From: Thermoproteota archaeon | Lineage (GTDB): Archaea; Korarchaeota; Korarchaeia; Korarchaeales; Korarchaeaceae | NCBI GenBank assembly: GCA_030130125.1 | Contig: JARZZM010000013.1 | Location: forward strand, 1 to 64,000 | DNA: 64,000 bases | Reading direction: 5' to 3' | Part shown: one piece after another, positions 54,968 to 63,565 of the stretch | How the letters are laid out: the number at the start of each line of letters is the position of its first letter | Numbering within the stretch: the first letter of the stretch is position 1 | The notes under the pieces: generated by a model | The model's input: only the letters and a program-made list of their open reading frames with translations | Databases searched by the model: none | Told to the model about the DNA's origin: nothing | Made by a program: the position numbers and the translations under genes

Positions 54968-55741
54968 TCACAGGACACCCTCCTCCTTCAGGGCCTGAAT
55001 CAGCTTTTCTGCCGCCTCTTCAACATCTCCTTCTATCACTATCTGCTTCCTCTCGACTTTCGGAACCTTCAACTCCCTAATCACGAGTTTGGGCTCAACA
55101 GGAGGGGAGAAGTCCTTCTGGTCCATGGGCTTCTTCTTGGCCTTGACTATCTCGACCAGCTTAGGTACCCTAGGCTTATTTATCTCTTGAGTAACGCTTA
55201 TCACGGCTGGAAGTTTGACCTTCACCACTTCCTCGAAGTCCTCCAAGCTCCGGGTTACTTTCACGTAATCCCCTTCAACCTCGATGGCGGTTGCATAGGC
55301 TACGTAAGGCCAGCCGAGCTCGGCAGCTAACCTGGCCGGTAACAGGCCTGAGAAATTGTCCTCACTACCCTCAGCTGCCAAGACCAGTCTGAACTTATCC
55401 CTTATCTCCCCAGCTAAGGCCTTGGCTATCACGTATGTGTCACCTTTCTCTGCACCCTCTCCCATGATCAGCACCGCCCCATCTAGCCCCATGGCCAATA
55501 CCCTGGTGAGAGCCTCTCTAGCCTCCTTCTGTCTCTTCCCCGAGGAGCCCCAAGTGGATAGCATTATAGCTATGGCCTTTCCACCGAGCTTCTCCTTCAG
55601 TCTGACGGCCTCCTCCGTAGCATTGAGCTCTATATCCCCCGCCTTCGTGGGAGCATCCTCTATGTAGATTTTTCCGGTATCCTGATCTACTCTGAGCTCC
55701 TGAACGTCAAGAGACTGCTTAACGAGGACGGCTATATCCAT
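54968..55741 (-). CDS. fixA: Electron transfer flavoprotein beta subunit
   Basis: About 257 residues. MDIAVLVKQSLDVQELRVDQDTGKIYIEDAP at the start, AVRLKEKLGG, then GWPYVAYATAIEVEGDYVKVTRSLEDFEEVVKVKLPAVISV, the ETF-beta signature. First gene of the fixABC-thiolase-moa run. ATG 55741 sits behind GGTGG; GTG 55750 is the alternative. Whether this ETF bifurcates electrons (NADH to ferredoxin and quinone) cannot be decided by eye, but fixC and fixX nearby favour it. Confidence 0.93.
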   Translation of the reverse strand: MDIAVLVKQSLDVQELRVDQDTGKIYIEDAPTKAGDIELNATEEAVRLKEKLGGKAIAIMLSTWGSSGKRQKEAREALTRVLAMGLDGAVLIMGEGAEKGDTYVIAKALAGEIRDKFRLVLAAEGSEDNFSGLLPARLAAELGWPYVAYATAIEVEGDYVKVTRSLEDFEEVVKVKLPAVISVTQEINKPRVPKLVEIVKAKKKPMDQKDFSPPVEPKLVIRELKVPKVERKQIVIEGDVEEAAEKLIQALKEEGVL

Positions 55742-55823
55742 AATCGCCACCGCGCTGGCCCGGGAATGGAAATATCAAAAAGTTGATTAGTTAAACGGGA
55801 AGGCTATGTGATGGTGTGGGACA
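55742..55823. promoter_or_regulatory. Divergent fixA / fixX promoter region
   Basis: Between the two starts lie a minus-strand TTTTTGATATTT box (about 55772-55782) for fixA and a plus-strand AGTTAAAC box (about 55790-55796) for fixX. The boxes are side by side, so one regulator could control both directions. Confidence 0.4.
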
Positions 55824-56120
55824 ATGTCCAAGCTCTTTGGCCTCTCCATAGAGGATAAGCTGGCCGCGACTCACTTCGAGGTGGACGACAAGCCTCATAT
55901 ATGGATAAAGGACCAGGAGGTCTGCAGAGAATGTTCGGAAAAGCCCTGTCAGGTAGCCTGTCCGGCTAAACTGTATCAGTGGGACGAGGAGACTAGGGAG
56001 ATGCTGTATAACTATGAGGGCTGCTTGGAGTGCGGTACATGCCTCCTGATATGCCCTCATGATAATGTTCACTGGAGCTACCCTTCGGGAGGGATGGGGG
56101 TAGTCTATAGATTCGGATAA
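55824..56120 (+). CDS. fixX: FixX-type ferredoxin-like protein
   Basis: 98 residues. Cluster motifs VCRECSEKPCQVACPAKLYQ and YEGCLECGTCLLICPHDNVHWSYPSGGMGVVYRFG, the latter being the typical FixX ending. It carries electrons between FixC and its partners. It diverges from fixA and is followed by the acyl-CoA dehydrogenase. Confidence 0.93.
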   Translation: MSKLFGLSIEDKLAATHFEVDDKPHIWIKDQEVCRECSEKPCQVACPAKLYQWDEETREMLYNYEGCLECGTCLLICPHDNVHWSYPSGGMGVVYRFG

Positions 56121-56203
56121 GATATAACATGCTGATATTTTACGAAGAAGAGCTCTCATAATTTTTAAGATTCCCAGCACACCCTAGCCTAGGGTGTAAC
56201 CCT

Positions 56204-57406
56204 TTGGTCGATTTCGGATTCACTGAGGAAGAAGAGGTATTTAGGGAGACTCTTAGGGAACTTCTCTCCGAGGTACTGGCTCCTAAGGCTAGGGAAATAG
56301 ACACGAAGTGTAGGATTCCTGATGAGGTGATAAAGACCCTCGCGGAGAATGGCATTCTCCTCTTGACGGTCAAGCCAGAATACGGTGGTCAGGGAGCTAG
56401 CTGGGTTATGGGAACCATAGCTACTGAGGAACTGGCCCGAGCCGATCCCAGCGTGGCCACAGCCGTGTTCCACTTGGTGGAGGCCTCTTGGGGGAAGATC
56501 GTCGAGAGATACGCGAATCCCGAGCTGGCTAAGGAGGTCTTGAGCAGAGCTGCTAAGGGAGAGGGGTTCGTGGGTATAAACTCCACCGAGCCTCAGAGCG
56601 GCAGCGATGTGGCTGGGTTCAAGACGTTGGCCAAGAAGGAGGACGGTTACTGGGTACTCAACGGCGAGAAGACATTCATAAGCGGAATAGTGGAGGCCAA
56701 GGAGCTAGACGGAGGCTACGTTACCCTCGTAAAGACCAAGCCAGAGGCCGGATCTAGGGGAATGAGTATAGTCTGGCTACCGATAAATCTGCCCGGAATA
56801 GAGACTGGCCTCTTCGAGGATATGGGCAGATGCGGTATAAGCACGGGATGGATGAGACTGAACAACGTCAAGATACCTGAGGATTACATAATAGGGGAGG
56901 TCAACGAGGGCTTCGGCATAGCTATGGAGGGATTCAACAGAGCGAGGGTCTTTGTAGCCGCAGGATGCACCGGGTCTGCAATGGGCATGTTCGATTACAC
57001 AAAGGACTATGTGAAGAACAGGGTAGTGTTCAACAGGTCCCTAGCATCCTTTGAGGGAATACAGTTCCCACTAGTGGACTATTACTCGAAGCTAGAGGCC
57101 ACTAGACTCGTCATATATAAGGCCGCGTGGATGATAGATCAATTCGACCAAGGCAATGTAACCCTTAAGGAGGCTGGGCTCTGGGCGGCCATGGCCAAGC
57201 TGCTGGCTCCAGAGCTTTCCGTTGATGCTATAAAGGAGTTCATGAAGGCCACTGGAGCTTACGGCTACACCAAGGACACACCGCTCGAGATGGCCTTGAG
57301 AGGAGTAATGAGCTACTACGTGGGAGCGGAAGGCGGCCAGAACATAATGAGGCTGATAGTTGGAAGGTTCCTATTCGGAAAGGAGCATCTTCCGTACAAG
57401 AAGTGA
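56204..57406 (+). CDS. Acyl-CoA dehydrogenase
   Basis: 400 residues, FAD enzyme oxidising acyl-CoA to enoyl-CoA and passing electrons to ETF. N-terminal helix FGFTEEEEVFRETLRELLSE, FAD/substrate loop GINSTEPQSGSDVAGFKTLAKKEDGYWVLNGEKTFISG, GFGIAMEGFNRARVFVAAGCTGSAMGMFDYTKDYV, and the C-terminal YVGAEGGQNIMRLIVGRF. The start is TTG 56204; a TTTTAAG box near 56163-56169 supports a separate promoter. Direct electron partner is likely the fixAB product next to it. Confidence 0.9.
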   Translation: MVDFGFTEEEEVFRETLRELLSEVLAPKAREIDTKCRIPDEVIKTLAENGILLLTVKPEYGGQGASWVMGTIATEELARADPSVATAVFHLVEASWGKIVERYANPELAKEVLSRAAKGEGFVGINSTEPQSGSDVAGFKTLAKKEDGYWVLNGEKTFISGIVEAKELDGGYVTLVKTKPEAGSRGMSIVWLPINLPGIETGLFEDMGRCGISTGWMRLNNVKIPEDYIIGEVNEGFGIAMEGFNRARVFVAAGCTGSAMGMFDYTKDYVKNRVVFNRSLASFEGIQFPLVDYYSKLEATRLVIYKAAWMIDQFDQGNVTLKEAGLWAAMAKLLAPELSVDAIKEFMKATGAYGYTKDTPLEMALRGVMSYYVGAEGGQNIMRLIVGRFLFGKEHLPYKK

Positions 57407-57446: not shown

Positions 57447-57497
57447 AAGTTAATTAACTTCAGCGTGCCTTCTCCTAGGTGATCCAAGCTGCTGAGG

Positions 57498-57788
57498 GTG
57501 AGGGAAATCTCCTTAGATGGGATCAGGCTGGTCGGAATAGAGGTGGACCTGCCTGATTCTCCACCTCTCATCTTGATAAGGGGGAATAGGAGCTTCGCCA
57601 TGTGCGGGTTCCTGAACATAGAGGCCGCGGATAGGGCGGGGGTATCGGCCATCATGTCCAGCGGCGTCAATAGCGTGGAAGATCTCTTGGAGTCCCCAGT
57701 TAAAGGAGCTACCTCTAGAGCACTGGAGATGGGTGCAAAGATGGGTGAGAAGGTCTCCGAGTCCCTGAGGAGGATGGAGATGGAGTAG
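57498..57788 (+). CDS. DUF1805 family protein
   Basis: 96 residues. Core PPLILIRGNRSFAMCGFLNIEAADRAGVSAIMSSGVNSVEDLLESPVKGAT matches the DUF1805 (YunC-like) pattern with its conserved CG(F/Y)LN. Function unknown. GTG 57498 is used. It ends 7 bp before the threonine-synthase-like gene, so the two are likely one operon. Confidence 0.8.
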   Translation: MREISLDGIRLVGIEVDLPDSPPLILIRGNRSFAMCGFLNIEAADRAGVSAIMSSGVNSVEDLLESPVKGATSRALEMGAKMGEKVSESLRRMEME

Positions 57789-57795
57789 GTGCGTG

Positions 57796-58911
57796 ATGAA
57801 GTACAGATGTATCAGTTGCGGTTACACGACTTCGAACTTCTCCACTAAGTGCCCGAAATGCGGATCTCCGATGGAGATAGTCTTGGATCGGAGGGAATGG
57901 TCGCTGGACGAGGAGGAACCGTCCATATGGAGGTATAGATATCTACTTCCCGATCCCAAGAGGAGGGTTAGCTTGGGTGAGGGACTCACGCCCCTCAGGA
58001 GGATCGAGGGCATACTCGTGAAGGACGAAACTAGGAACCCCACAGGTTCGTACGTCGACAGGGGATCCTCTGTACTAGCCAGCTGCTCAGATCTACCTGA
58101 GGAGCTGGAGCTCGACTTCTCTCAGGACATAACGGTCTCCATCTCCACATACCTTCTCGAGTCTGGTGTGAAGGTCAGGGTCAGGGTGGATCCCAGCAGC
58201 GTGGAGCTAACGGAGCTGCTTTACCTCTCAAACTTGGATGTGGACATATCCTTCGATGGGGGCGGGGGAAGGGCGTACGAGAGTCCCTTCATGATAGAGG
58301 GCTTCAAAACTATAGCCTTCGAGATATACGAGGCAAAGGGAGGGGCTGATGGTCTAGTCATTCCAGCGGAGTCAGGAGTCTTGGCATACGGGGTATGGAA
58401 GGGATTCTCCGAGCTGGAGGAACTGGGTCTGTCTGGGATCCCCCCCATATACTTAGCTTACCACGGGACCGTCAAGACGGGACTCCTCGAGACCTTGGAG
58501 AGCAGGGGTGTGAGATTGGTTGAAGTGGATGCGGCAAGTGCACTAGAATCGCTGGTCCAGTTGGCGAGAAAGGGAGTGTACATCAAGCCAGTAGCTGCCA
58601 AGGCGTACTCCCTAGCCAAGGAGCTCGGGAGCGATGTGATAGCCGTACTCACAGGGACCGGCCTCAGGAAGTGGGAACACGGGGTGACTGCGAGGCGCCT
58701 CACCGAACTCCAAGCGAGAGTGCTGAATGTCCTCAGGGAGGGTGGTGAGATGACCGCGTACCAGATATGGAGGAGGTTGGATGATGTTTCACTCCAAGGC
58801 GTTTACAAGGCGCTCTCGAAGCTGGTCGAATCGGGTATGGTTGAGAGTAGGAGCGCGATGATGAAGCGGAGGAAGATAAGGCTATATAGGGTCATGGAAT
58901 CCAGTCGTTGA
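57796..58911 (+). CDS. Threonine-synthase-like protein lacking the PLP lysine, fused to a winged helix
   Basis: About 371 residues in three parts. (1) Zinc ribbon with Cys5, Cys8, Cys19, Cys22. (2) Fold-type II PLP-enzyme domain with threonine-synthase marks: GEGLTPLRRIEGILVKDETRNPTGS, GLVIPAESGVLAYGVWKGF, PIYLAYHGTVKTGLLETL and VIAVLTGTGLRKW. The usual SFKDRG motif is SYVDRG, so the PLP lysine is Val87. (3) C-terminal winged helix from ~303: LQARVLNVLREGGEMTAYQIWRRLDDVSLQGVYKALSKLVESGMV. It is therefore probably not an enzyme but a ligand-sensing regulator; that is inference. ATG 57796; GTG 57793 also possible. Confidence 0.7.
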   Translation: MKYRCISCGYTTSNFSTKCPKCGSPMEIVLDRREWSLDEEEPSIWRYRYLLPDPKRRVSLGEGLTPLRRIEGILVKDETRNPTGSYVDRGSSVLASCSDLPEELELDFSQDITVSISTYLLESGVKVRVRVDPSSVELTELLYLSNLDVDISFDGGGGRAYESPFMIEGFKTIAFEIYEAKGGADGLVIPAESGVLAYGVWKGFSELEELGLSGIPPIYLAYHGTVKTGLLETLESRGVRLVEVDAASALESLVQLARKGVYIKPVAAKAYSLAKELGSDVIAVLTGTGLRKWEHGVTARRLTELQARVLNVLREGGEMTAYQIWRRLDDVSLQGVYKALSKLVESGMVESRSAMMKRRKIRLYRVMESSR

Positions 58912-58912
58912 G

Positions 58913-59578
58913 ATGGATCCTAGGGAGAGACTCAAGGAATCCTTAGTGGACTTGGATGAGGATTCCTTCTTCGAAGCGCTTAAGGACCTATTAGCTGGGG
59001 GAGAGGATCCTTGGGACATAATACTCGGTCCCATGAGCGAGGCCATGGATGAGATAGGAAAGCTCTACGAGGAGGGCGAATATTTCATAGCGGAGATGCT
59101 CGTGGCGGCTGATATATTTAAGAAAGCCCTCAAGGAGATGGGTATCGAGGAATCAGATAGCGAGTCTTCCTTGGGAGTAGTGGTCATAGGTACAGTGAAG
59201 GGAGATGTCCACGACATAGGGAAGAGCCTAGTCGCCACGATGCTGAGGGCCTCGGGTTTCAAGGTGATAGATCTGGGGGTTGACGTGGATGCTGACAGAT
59301 TCATCCACGCAGTTAGGGAGCATGACGCAGATATAGTGGCAATGAGCGCCCTGCTAACGACTACTAGGAACTACATGAAGGCCGTGATAGATAGATTGAA
59401 GGAGGAGGGTCTCAGAGACAGAGTGAAGGTGTTGATAGGAGGCCTGTCCACATCTAAGGAGTTTGCTGAGAAGATAGGAGCCGATGGATGGGGTAAAAAC
59501 GCCATAGAAGGAGTAGAAGTAGCTAAGAGGCTTCTCGGCGTGCCAGCTAATGGAGGAAGTGAACGAGAAACGAGTTAA
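58913..59578 (+). CDS. Corrinoid (B12-binding) protein of methyltransferase type
   Basis: 221 residues. The N-terminal helical cap (EDPWDIILGPMSEAMDEIGKLYEEGEYFIAEMLVAADIFKKAL) and Rossmann cobalamin domain with VIGTVKGDVHDIGKSLVATMLRASGFKVIDLGVDV match MtaC/MtbC/MttC-type corrinoid proteins; His100 in DVHDIG is the lower cobalt ligand. The end VLIGGLSTSKEFAEKIGADGWGKNAIEGVEVAKRLLG is usual. No methyltransferase partner lies beside it. It starts 1 bp after the upstream stop, so it is in the same operon as the pseudo-threonine synthase. Confidence 0.88.
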   Translation: MDPRERLKESLVDLDEDSFFEALKDLLAGGEDPWDIILGPMSEAMDEIGKLYEEGEYFIAEMLVAADIFKKALKEMGIEESDSESSLGVVVIGTVKGDVHDIGKSLVATMLRASGFKVIDLGVDVDADRFIHAVREHDADIVAMSALLTTTRNYMKAVIDRLKEEGLRDRVKVLIGGLSTSKEFAEKIGADGWGKNAIEGVEVAKRLLGVPANGGSERETS

Positions 59579-60613: not shown

Positions 60614-62494
60614 ATGGGTCAGGCCGCGGGGCTATCCAAACTGCTCAGGAAGATAAGATGGGAAATGGACACCTTCTCTTGGTCACAGCTGATCATAGTC
60701 CTAGCCTCATTCACCGCTTTCCTCATAGTCCCCCTAGGACTGGTAGTTGTGAGGTCCTTCTACTCTTCATCCGGCGGTTTCTCCTTCTACTGGCTCCAGA
60801 CGATACTCACAGATCCCTTCTACTTCCCTCTGAGGCTGAAGCTGCTGAATCAATTTCCTTTCATCTCCTTGGAGGGGATAAGGGGAAGCCTCTACGAAGT
60901 GGTGAAGTACCAAACTGCCGCAGGAGAGGAGACGATCGTCCTGCTTACTGGCTGGGACATGGGGGTCATACCGAACTCCCTCGTGGTAGCCACCTCCACA
61001 ACGCTCTTCTCCACCGTTTTGGGCTTTACGCTGGCCTTTGTATTCGCCAAGTACAGGTTCCCCGGATCAGAGGTTCTCAGGATAGTATCCCTGATCCCGC
61101 TGCTCTCCACACCCTTCGTGGGAGCTATAGGCCTTAAGAAGATGATAGTGGCCGACGGTGTCCTCAACGTCCTCTTCTACGACATGTTACACCTTCTCCC
61201 CTTCAAGATAGAGATCACCGGACTCCCTGCGGTTATACTGGTTCAGACTCTCCTGTTCTACCCTATAGTAATGCTGAACTCCTACACCGCCCTGATAAGC
61301 GTCGATCCGACGCTGGAAGAACAGGCTATCAACATGGGAGCGAGCGGCTTCAAGCTTTTCAGGACTGTGACTCTACCGCTTGCCACTCCAGGGGTGGAGG
61401 CCGGTGCCCTTCTCGTATTCATCCTCTCACTTGAGGACTTGGGCACGCCCATAGTTTTCAAGGGGACGACAGCCGAGAAGGTCCTGACCTTTCAGATATT
61501 CAACAGGATCTTCACTCCAGCTGGCCTCATCTCCCAAGAGGCCACCACCTTGGCGATGATTCTCCTCGTCATCTCTGGCTTGGTCTTCGTGGGCGTGAGG
61601 AGATACGTCAGCTTGAAGAAGTACGCGATGCTGAGCAAGGGAGGCACTTGGAGGCCTAGGAGGAAGAAGCTATCGCCTGCGATCACCCTGCTTGTCTACA
61701 TCTTCATACTGGGGGTTCTCTTTTTCGCCACGCTTCCCCACATAGGCGTAGCCCTCCTCGCATTCGCTAAGCAGTGGGGACCCACACTTCTACCGTCCAG
61801 CTTTACCCTAGACAACTTCGCGGCAGTGCTGAGCGATGAGGAGGCCAGCAGATGCATAATGAACAGCCTGATCTACTCCACGATAGCGACCCTCTTTATG
61901 GTCGTGCTTGGGGTGAGCGCCGCCTATTTGGTCTCTAGGAAGAAATCCCTTCCAGGAATAGAGGCCCTAGACCTCCTTGTGACGATACCCATAGCCGTCC
62001 CCGGAATAGCTGTGGCCACCGGACTCTTCCTGACCTATTTGGGTACCCCACTGAGCCCCACCATAAGTGGTGCCCCTTTGTTGATCGCCTCCTATACCGT
62101 CAGGAAGATCCCGTTCACAGTGAGAGCAGTATTCTCAGGATTAGAGCAGACGGATAAAACGCTTGACGAGGTGGCTTGGACCGTGGGGGCCAGTAGAACA
62201 AGGACATTCTTCTCCATAGTCATGCCCATGATCCTCCTAAATGTCCTAGCAGGGGGAATGCTCTCATTCATCTACTCTATGTCGGAGGTCAGCACGGGCA
62301 TAGTCGTCGGGGATGCGAATCACAGGGACGCTCCAATGACTTGGAAGATGTACGACATGCTCTTCCATGGACTGGCGGGTGGCACATTCCAGCCCGCTGC
62401 GCTGGGCTTCCTGCTCATGACCCTCCAATTCATCTTCATAGTGGGAGCGAACCTGCTCCTGAGGAAGAGGGCTACGGCCCTGATAGGTGTGTGA
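60614..62494 (+). CDS. ABC transporter permease with two fused permease domains (FbpB/ThiP type)
   Basis: 626 residues, 12 helices, two BPD permease units in one chain. The first EAA loop is EEQAINMGASGFKLFRTVTLPLATPGVEAG, the second is DEVAWTVGASRTRTFFSIVMPMILLNVLAG. Such fused permeases belong to iron(III), thiamine or 2-aminoethylphosphonate-type importers. It is followed after 9 bp by the ATPase gene. No substrate-binding protein gene lies nearby. A TTTATAA box at about 60575-60581 precedes the start. Confidence 0.85.
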   Translation: MGQAAGLSKLLRKIRWEMDTFSWSQLIIVLASFTAFLIVPLGLVVVRSFYSSSGGFSFYWLQTILTDPFYFPLRLKLLNQFPFISLEGIRGSLYEVVKYQTAAGEETIVLLTGWDMGVIPNSLVVATSTTLFSTVLGFTLAFVFAKYRFPGSEVLRIVSLIPLLSTPFVGAIGLKKMIVADGVLNVLFYDMLHLLPFKIEITGLPAVILVQTLLFYPIVMLNSYTALISVDPTLEEQAINMGASGFKLFRTVTLPLATPGVEAGALLVFILSLEDLGTPIVFKGTTAEKVLTFQIFNRIFTPAGLISQEATTLAMILLVISGLVFVGVRRYVSLKKYAMLSKGGTWRPRRKKLSPAITLLVYIFILGVLFFATLPHIGVALLAFAKQWGPTLLPSSFTLDNFAAVLSDEEASRCIMNSLIYSTIATLFMVVLGVSAAYLVSRKKSLPGIEALDLLVTIPIAVPGIAVATGLFLTYLGTPLSPTISGAPLLIASYTVRKIPFTVRAVFSGLEQTDKTLDEVAWTVGASRTRTFFSIVMPMILLNVLAGGMLSFIYSMSEVSTGIVVGDANHRDAPMTWKMYDMLFHGLAGGTFQPAALGFLLMTLQFIFIVGANLLLRKRATALIGV

Positions 62495-62503
62495 GGTGGT
62501 CTT

Positions 62504-63565
62504 ATGGTGTCGATAAGGACCGTGAATCTTACGAAGGTCTTCGGAGAGGTTGTGGCCGTGGATCACGTCAGCTTGGAGATAAAGCACGGGGAGTTCTTCA
62601 CCCTGCTCGGACCCTCTGGCTGCGGCAAGACCACATTTCTCAGAACGATTGCCGGACTTGAGTTGGCTGACGAAGGCAGTATCTACTTCGATGATCAGGA
62701 CATAACGGACATGCCCGCCCACCTGAGGGGGACGGGGATGGTGTTCCAGAATTACGCCCTGTGGCCCCACATGAATGTCTTCGATAACATCGCGTACGGG
62801 CTGAAGATAAGGAAGGTTCCCAAGGAGGAGATTAGGAGGAGGGTCAAGGAGGTCCTCAAGCTGGTCAAGCTCGAGGGCATGGAGAACAGGACACCGCACC
62901 AACTTTCCGGGGGCCAGCAACAGAGGGTAGCCTTGGCTAGGGCGCTGGTGATAAATCCGAGGGTCCTCCTGTTTGACGAGCCCCTCAGCAATCTGGATGC
63001 CAAGCTGAGGATAGAGATGAGGGCCGAACTCAGAAGATTACAGAGGGAACTCGGGATCACGGCCATCTACGTCACCCATGACCAAGAGGAGGCCATGAGC
63101 ATATCCGATCGAATAGCTGTGATGAACAAGGGCAGGATAATGCAGGTCGGCACGCCCAAGGAGATATACAAGAACCCGAGGAACGAGTTCGTCGCTAGGT
63201 TCATAGGTCAGGGGACCTTCATCACCGGGGAGGTAGTCTCATCCGGTGAGGAGCTGGAGGTGCGACTGGAGAGTGGTAAGGTGGTTAAAGCAGTTCCTTC
63301 CCACCCCGACGTGAGATTGGAGGTTGGAGATAAGACCCTAATCATGATAAGACCCGAGTCCTTTACTCTGGAGCCGGGTAAGAGGTATAACGAGTTCGAG
63401 GTGGAGGTCTACCATATATCCTTCTTGGGCGACTCTCAGATGCTTCAGGCCAGCAATGAGGTTGAGAACTTCATAATAGAGGTAGATCCCGATCTGGATA
63501 TAAATGTGGGGCAGAAGCTGAAAGTCTACGCCCCGCCAAGGCACACCCTCGCTGTCAAGCTCTGA
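62504..63565 (+). CDS. ABC transporter ATP-binding protein with TOBE domain (FbpC/PotA-like)
   Basis: 353 residues. Walker A GPSGCGKTTFLR, Q-loop FQNYALWPHM, signature LSGGQQQRVALARAL, Walker B LLFDEPLSNLDA, switch YVTHDQEEAM. The C-terminal ~110 residues form a TOBE domain (FIGQGTFITGEVVSSGEELEVRLESGK). It powers the fused permease upstream. GAGGTGG lies just before ATG 62504. Convergent overlap of 11 bp with the MFS gene. Confidence 0.9.
   Translation: MVSIRTVNLTKVFGEVVAVDHVSLEIKHGEFFTLLGPSGCGKTTFLRTIAGLELADEGSIYFDDQDITDMPAHLRGTGMVFQNYALWPHMNVFDNIAYGLKIRKVPKEEIRRRVKEVLKLVKLEGMENRTPHQLSGGQQQRVALARALVINPRVLLFDEPLSNLDAKLRIEMRAELRRLQRELGITAIYVTHDQEEAMSISDRIAVMNKGRIMQVGTPKEIYKNPRNEFVARFIGQGTFITGEVVSSGEELEVRLESGKVVKAVPSHPDVRLEVGDKTLIMIRPESFTLEPGKRYNEFEVEVYHISFLGDSQMLQASNEVENFIIEVDPDLDINVGQKLKVYAPPRHTLAVKL

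Follow-up and report, generated by a model that had tools for sequence, protein, structure and literature searches.

The window analysed here, a stretch of 64,000 nucleotides from an archaeon whose genus we take to be Korarchaeum, contains an operon encoding, in order, a DUF1805 protein, a protein that joins a zinc ribbon, a threonine synthase (ThrC) core and a winged helix, and a corrinoid protein (Table 1). Translation of the middle gene was taken to start at an ATG, with an alternative GTG at 57793. A reading frame homologous to the DUF1805 gene is also found upstream in close relatives.

Two further gene groups lie nearby. Before the operon, at 54968-57406, an acyl-CoA dehydrogenase gene adjoins ORF 54968-55750, whose product resembles by eye an electron-transfer flavoprotein subunit; this upstream arrangement is conserved in much of the genus. 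Beyond the operon, downstream of a gene for an EamA transporter, positions 60614-63565 encode an ABC transporter composed of a 626-aa double permease and a PotA/PhnT2-like ATPase, and no binding-protein gene for it was recognised within ~8 kb beyond.

Table 1. Features of the operon and its promoter region in the window
Feature	Position	Strand	Basis or remark
DUF1805 protein, first operon gene	57498..57788	+	PF08827, 55.3 bits
Predicted regulator: zinc ribbon, degenerate threonine-synthase core and winged helix, 371 aa	57796..58911	+	
Zinc ribbon cysteines C5, C8, C19, C22	57808..57861	+	40-member family alignment
Val87 codon, position of the PLP-binding lysine (SYVDRG versus SFKDRG)	58054..58056	+	
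C-terminal winged helix, residues 302-366	58699..58893	+	Pfam HTH_20/TrmB/HTH_27; AlphaFold secondary structure
Corrinoid (B12-binding) protein, MtbC/MtgC type	58913..59578	+	PF02310, PF02607, TIGR02370
Perfect palindrome AAGTTAATTAACTT, operon promoter region	57447..57460	.	Candidate autoregulatory site (weak)

A threonine synthase fold with a degenerate core

A preliminary description of the middle gene had reported a zinc ribbon, a ThrC core that was intact save for the lysine that forms the Schiff base with PLP, and an added winged helix. The two terminal domains were readily recovered. Amongst 40 family members C5, C8 and C22 are invariant and C19 nearly so, and residues 302-360 match HTH_20, TrmB and HTH_27 above their respective Pfam cut-offs. 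An AlphaFold model built from 40 family sequences (pLDDT 88) folds the C-terminal region as a winged helix, with helices at residues 304-316, 321-327 and 333-345 followed by strands at 349-356 and 359-366. The core scores 64.6 bits against the Pfam family PALP (cut-off 35), and the top PDB matches found by Foldseek are threonine synthases (6nmx_A, E 1.4e-15; also 2zsj and 1uim). As phmmer aligns 'nptgsyvdrg' of the window protein to 'NPTGSFKDRG' of 1uim, Val87 occupies the Schiff-base lysine position, in agreement with the earlier reading.

The core itself, however, is not intact. It is shortened between the DRG and EG-KT motifs relative to active enzymes, and throughout the Korarchaeum set Asp stands in for the O3'-binding Asn of the STGN motif and Glu for the first Gly of the phosphate loop; the roles of these residues are taken from the established structural biology of threonine synthase. 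The protein retains the fold and domain homology of threonine synthase and lacks its Schiff-base lysine, STGN Asn and Gly-rich loop. Each of the 16 genomes in the genus contains an orthologue, in G007 only as two fragments, and every orthologue covering the site has Val, Ile or Ala in place of the lysine. The residue census rules out an active threonine synthase for this ORF; two separate thrC genes with the SFKDRG motif are present elsewhere in the genome.

A fused archaeal family and its lysine census

Proteins composed of a zinc ribbon, a ThrC core and a winged helix are abundant in Bathyarchaeia, Asgard archaea, Thermococcaceae (our own assignment for family f10), other Korarchaeia and some Thermoprotei, and carry the NCBI label "threonine synthase". 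We compiled a census of 212 distinct ThrC-like ORFs, comprising 57 solo proteins, 154 that are fused to a winged helix, and one Arg protein left unjudged with its tail masked off. The lysine is kept in all 57 solo proteins and is lost from 134 of the 154 fused ones, where it is replaced by Arg (102 proteins) or by Ile, Val, Leu, Met, Ser or Ala (32 proteins); its loss was found only alongside the winged helix. The preliminary description had proposed to check whether the two traits are conserved together in archaeal homologues. Their association is strong, yet it has exceptions: the lysine persists in 20 fused proteins, and a strict coupling of lysine loss to the winged helix is ruled out.

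In the phylogenetic tree, all fused proteins fall on one side of a single branch (support 92/93), so that one fusion event suffices to explain them. The window protein, which has all three domains, lies on the fused side, and the Lys-bearing fused proteins form two clades among the Arg-bearing ones. Three elements of the PLP site (Asn, Gly loop and Thr) persist in Arg-type members, a pattern suggesting continued, non-covalent binding of PLP or a derivative. Most fused proteins, 18 of the 20 Lys-type members among them, have S[N/D]GN in place of the STGN motif. Lys-type proteins share the linkage to an ECF transporter gene described below, which argues that regulation would not need loss of the lysine. 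In several Bathyarchaeia loci (L099-L113, e.g. L107:144-1406), an intact SFKDRG thrC gene adjoins the dead fused gene, mostly in divergent orientation.

Linkage to B6 genes and candidate operators

Outside Korarchaeum, 76 of 92 fused loci pair the fused gene with an adjacent PF07155 gene for an ECF transporter S component; contig ends were left out of this count, whose members are not independent, since most linked loci come from related Bathyarchaeia. The ECF gene is downstream on the same strand in 59 of these loci, divergent in 10, convergent in 5 and upstream in 2. Known B6 transporters, PdxU and PdxU2/HmpT, belong to the same family (PMC9997740), and a profile of the linked S components gave one credible PDB match, 4hzu_S (E 8.5e-23), which is the L. 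brevis HmpT/PdxU2 whose substrate was identified as pyridoxamine by mass spectrometry (PMC4860826). Four of the six conserved pocket residues of HmpT are kept (E/Y/N/Q) and two are changed, H84 to K and Q87 to E, so the substrate of the archaeal transporters may differ from pyridoxamine. A gene for an AIR-synthase-like protein (L138:8878-9897, L267:7146-8216; PF00586/PF02769), whose nearest relatives are HypE and ThiL, follows the ECF gene in many Bathyarchaeia, and sequence resemblance indicates the same for Korarchaeum. ThiL is a kinase within the AIR-synthase-like superfamily, and we speculate that this protein might be a B6 kinase.

The synthesis genes pdxS and pdxT provide a second connection. 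An operon in G246 begins with the fused gene and continues with pdxS and pdxT, the latter recognised from sequence. pdxS occurs in none of 19 genomes with a fused-ECF pair (in one, G060, the adjacency is carried over from its congener G038) and in 11 of 12 comparison archaea without a fused gene (p 1.4e-7), a comparison amongst genomes of varying completeness, most >85%, in which related genomes are not independent. Of nine genomes holding Bathyarchaeia and Lokiarchaeota loci, two possess pdxS.

In Thermococcaceae the fused gene adjoins neither the ECF gene nor pdxS, and linkage therefore cannot explain a shared pattern. Across 46 Thermococcaceae genomes, 35 contain both the fused and the ECF gene, 5 the ECF gene only, none the fused gene only, and 6 neither (p 4.9e-5). 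The ECF proteins of the five ECF-only genomes are among the top-scoring PF07155 matches and their genes have upstream regions unlike the rest, which suggests that they may be of another type. All 10 Thermococcaceae genomes that lack pdxS have both the ECF and the fused gene; within this family alone, complementation between pdxS and ECF is suggestive and not significant (fused gene versus pdxS, p 0.09).

A predicted operator, TTCAAGTTNNAACTTGAA, follows the same distribution. Taking at least 13 of 16 matches as presence (the best of several hundred random windows reached 12), we found it before the ECF gene in 25 of 25 genomes with the fused gene (14-16 of 16) and in 0 of 5 without it. Before pdxS it matches at 13-16 of 16 positions in 16 of 19 genomes with the fused gene, and at 12 or fewer in all 11 without. 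A genome-wide scan of 50 genomes returned ~22 exact sites, ~20 of which precede ECF or pdxS; inspection of the two remaining exact sites revealed no obvious B6 gene behind them. The sites lie on or just past a TATA-like box, a position that suggests repression.

Similar sites are present outside Thermococcaceae. In L227 and L231, where the ECF gene adjoins the fused gene, an identical TTCAAGTTNNAACTTGAA site stands before the ECF gene; in Lokiarchaeota-type loci (L139-L141, L221, L223), AAGTTNNAACTT is found before the ECF gene. Together these sites connect operator and fused protein across phyla. Members of the Ile/Leu clade have another palindrome, CCTATATATAGG, directly upstream of the fused gene (L145, L225, L228, L229, L230). 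All five of its exact copies in 2.28 Mb of DNA are upstream of fused genes, two one-mismatch copies also being present, and it constitutes a second candidate operator class, that of the Ile/Leu-type fused genes. No common motif was recognised by eye upstream of the fused genes of Bathyarchaeia, the largest group.

A proposed B6 regulator family and the Korarchaeum offshoot

The explanation that best fits the comparative genomics is that the family regulates B6/PLP in archaea. The fusion of domains, the loss of the lysine, the linkage and co-occurrence of genes and the conservation of the operator were computed, and it is PLP as ligand, repression as outcome and binding as a dimer that we infer. 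In the proposed mechanism, the threonine-synthase domain, a PLP enzyme of fold type II, would act as the sensor that reports PLP or B6 status, and the C-terminal winged helix as the DNA reader. When PLP is plentiful, the winged helix would bind as a dimer to the palindrome, which in Thermococcaceae and some others is TTCAAGTTNNAACTTGAA, on or just past the TATA box of pdxST and of the B6-type ECF gene; B6 synthesis and uptake would thereby be repressed. The proposal that catalysis had given way to transcriptional control is thus well supported, both by lysine loss that accompanies only the winged helix and by the conserved candidate operator and target genes of the relatives. As for the ligand, suggested earlier to be an amino acid, phosphohomoserine or a PLP-like compound, the choice narrows to B6/PLP for the family, but not for the window protein, whose PLP pocket is ruined.

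The Korarchaeum copy has lost further PLP-pocket residues along with the ECF link. In this genus the fused gene shows no linkage to a PF07155 ECF gene or to pdxST; the ECF gene lies elsewhere, adjoining a divergent gene that by eye is of ArsR type (L267). No family palindrome was found upstream of that ECF gene, nor any operator common to it and the DUF1805-regulator-corrinoid operon, and the Thermococcus operator reaches only a background score in the window (9 of 16). A conserved CAACGTTNAATAA...GTTTAACT element is located upstream of the Korarchaeum ECF gene (L258-L265), where the divergent ArsR-type regulator might bind. Within the operon's promoter region, AAGTTAATTAACTT has the AAGTT/AACTT half-sites of the family operator at a spacing of 4 instead of 2; it occurs once in the 64-kb window (0.08 expected), and only the close relatives G015 and G008 share it. 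The Korarchaeum protein is an offshoot with a demolished PLP pocket, closely coupled to the corrinoid gene, which starts 1 bp past the regulator gene. Given this setting and the half-sites, it is probably still a DNA-binding regulator. Its ligand and target have likely changed. Most likely, it autoregulates the DUF1805-regulator-corrinoid operon with a small-molecule ligand that is changed or absent. A B6 role for the window's own protein is unsupported, and we do not claim one.

Other readings of the family were considered. The fused proteins could be bifunctional or still-active threonine synthases whose winged helix is merely autoregulatory, as the model name covering the Thermococcaceae members, the neighbouring thrC genes of several Bathyarchaeia loci, and the 20 proteins with a lysine and a largely preserved PLP pocket might imply. 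We regard this as most unlikely, as 134 of 154 lack the lysine, the STGN motif has changed even in 18 of the 20 that have it, separate SFKDRG thrC genes exist in the genomes, and both the operator and the gene linkages indicate B6 rather than threonine. It is unlikely, too, that the family senses an amino acid (threonine, homoserine or the ECF substrate) instead of PLP: the pdxST operon of G246, the pdxS operator of Thermococcaceae, the absence of pdxS from ECF-linked genomes, and the PLP-site residues retained by Arg-type members all speak for B6, although the conserved K and E of the ECF pocket and the thrC genes adjacent in some Bathyarchaeia would fit such a sensor.

Two readings concern the Korarchaeum protein itself. 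It may partner the downstream corrinoid protein, as a winged-helix regulator of, or acting with, a CarH-like B12 module. The 1-bp spacing, a gene order conserved in 12 of the 14 genomes of the genus (window counted) whose sequence continues past the regulator, and the B12-binding_2 plus B12-binding layout of the corrinoid protein, with its weak similarity to CarH (E 4.6e-11), are consistent with this; yet that protein matches methyltransferase corrinoid proteins far better (TIGR02370, 184.9 bits) and operon position alone is no proof of interaction, leaving such a partnership rather unlikely. That the gene is a functionless, decaying remnant, as its fast divergence and lost pocket residues might suggest, is barely credible when the reading frame is intact in nearly all genus genomes (51-98% identity) and the zinc ribbon and winged helix are conserved.

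We therefore favour regulation. It is quite likely that ORF 57796-58911 encodes a catalytically dead member of an archaeal one-component regulator family and that this family controls B6. The fuller account, in which widespread archaeal regulators derived from dead threonine synthase sense PLP and govern B6 synthesis and uptake, with the Korarchaeum branch having shifted to another ligand and into an operon with a corrinoid protein, seems likely. If so, several hundred archaeal proteins of the kind now named threonine synthase would be regulators, and archaeal B6 control would gain a candidate regulator whose operator and targets are defined. The operator-linked ECF gene would be a candidate archaeal B6 transporter, in a field described as poorly studied; few regulators of the PLP pathway are known, PdxR and PdxR2 amongst them (PMC9997740). 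Thermococcus and Pyrococcus are genetically tractable, which makes the claim directly testable.

In its fold and N-terminal zinc ribbon the window protein resembles archaeal ThrC (1uim, 6nmx, 2zsj), from which it differs by the missing PLP lysine, shortened core and added winged helix. The NCBIfam model NF004170 (PRK05638, 'threonine synthase') shares its domain order. Scores against this model reach 831 bits among Thermococcaceae members; that of the window protein is 131.4, below the curated threshold of 421. Arg occupies the lysine site in each of the 30 Thermococcaceae fused proteins read, and the name is thus probably wrong. Searches of the open-licence literature turned up no regulator with the ThrC fold and no B6 regulon of Thermococcales, nor any report of an archaeal B6 regulator or of a fold-type-II PLP enzyme serving as the sensor of a transcription factor; the family would supply both of the latter if the account is true. 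The closest likeness is to the bacterial MocR/GabR/PdxR regulators, which also combine a PLP-enzyme domain with a winged helix and control genes of PLP metabolism (PMC5320631, PMC4944035). MocR proteins have a fold-type-I aminotransferase domain and an N-terminal winged helix, whereas the archaeal family has a fold-type-II ThrC domain, a C-terminal winged helix and usually no lysine; no GntR or aminotransferase family appears among the Pfam and NCBIfam hits of the window protein. The pairing of a PLP-enzyme domain with a winged helix is therefore known, and the fold, domain order, domain of life and lysine loss are new; if our reading is right, PLP enzymes have been converted to regulators in a second PLP fold besides that of MocR.
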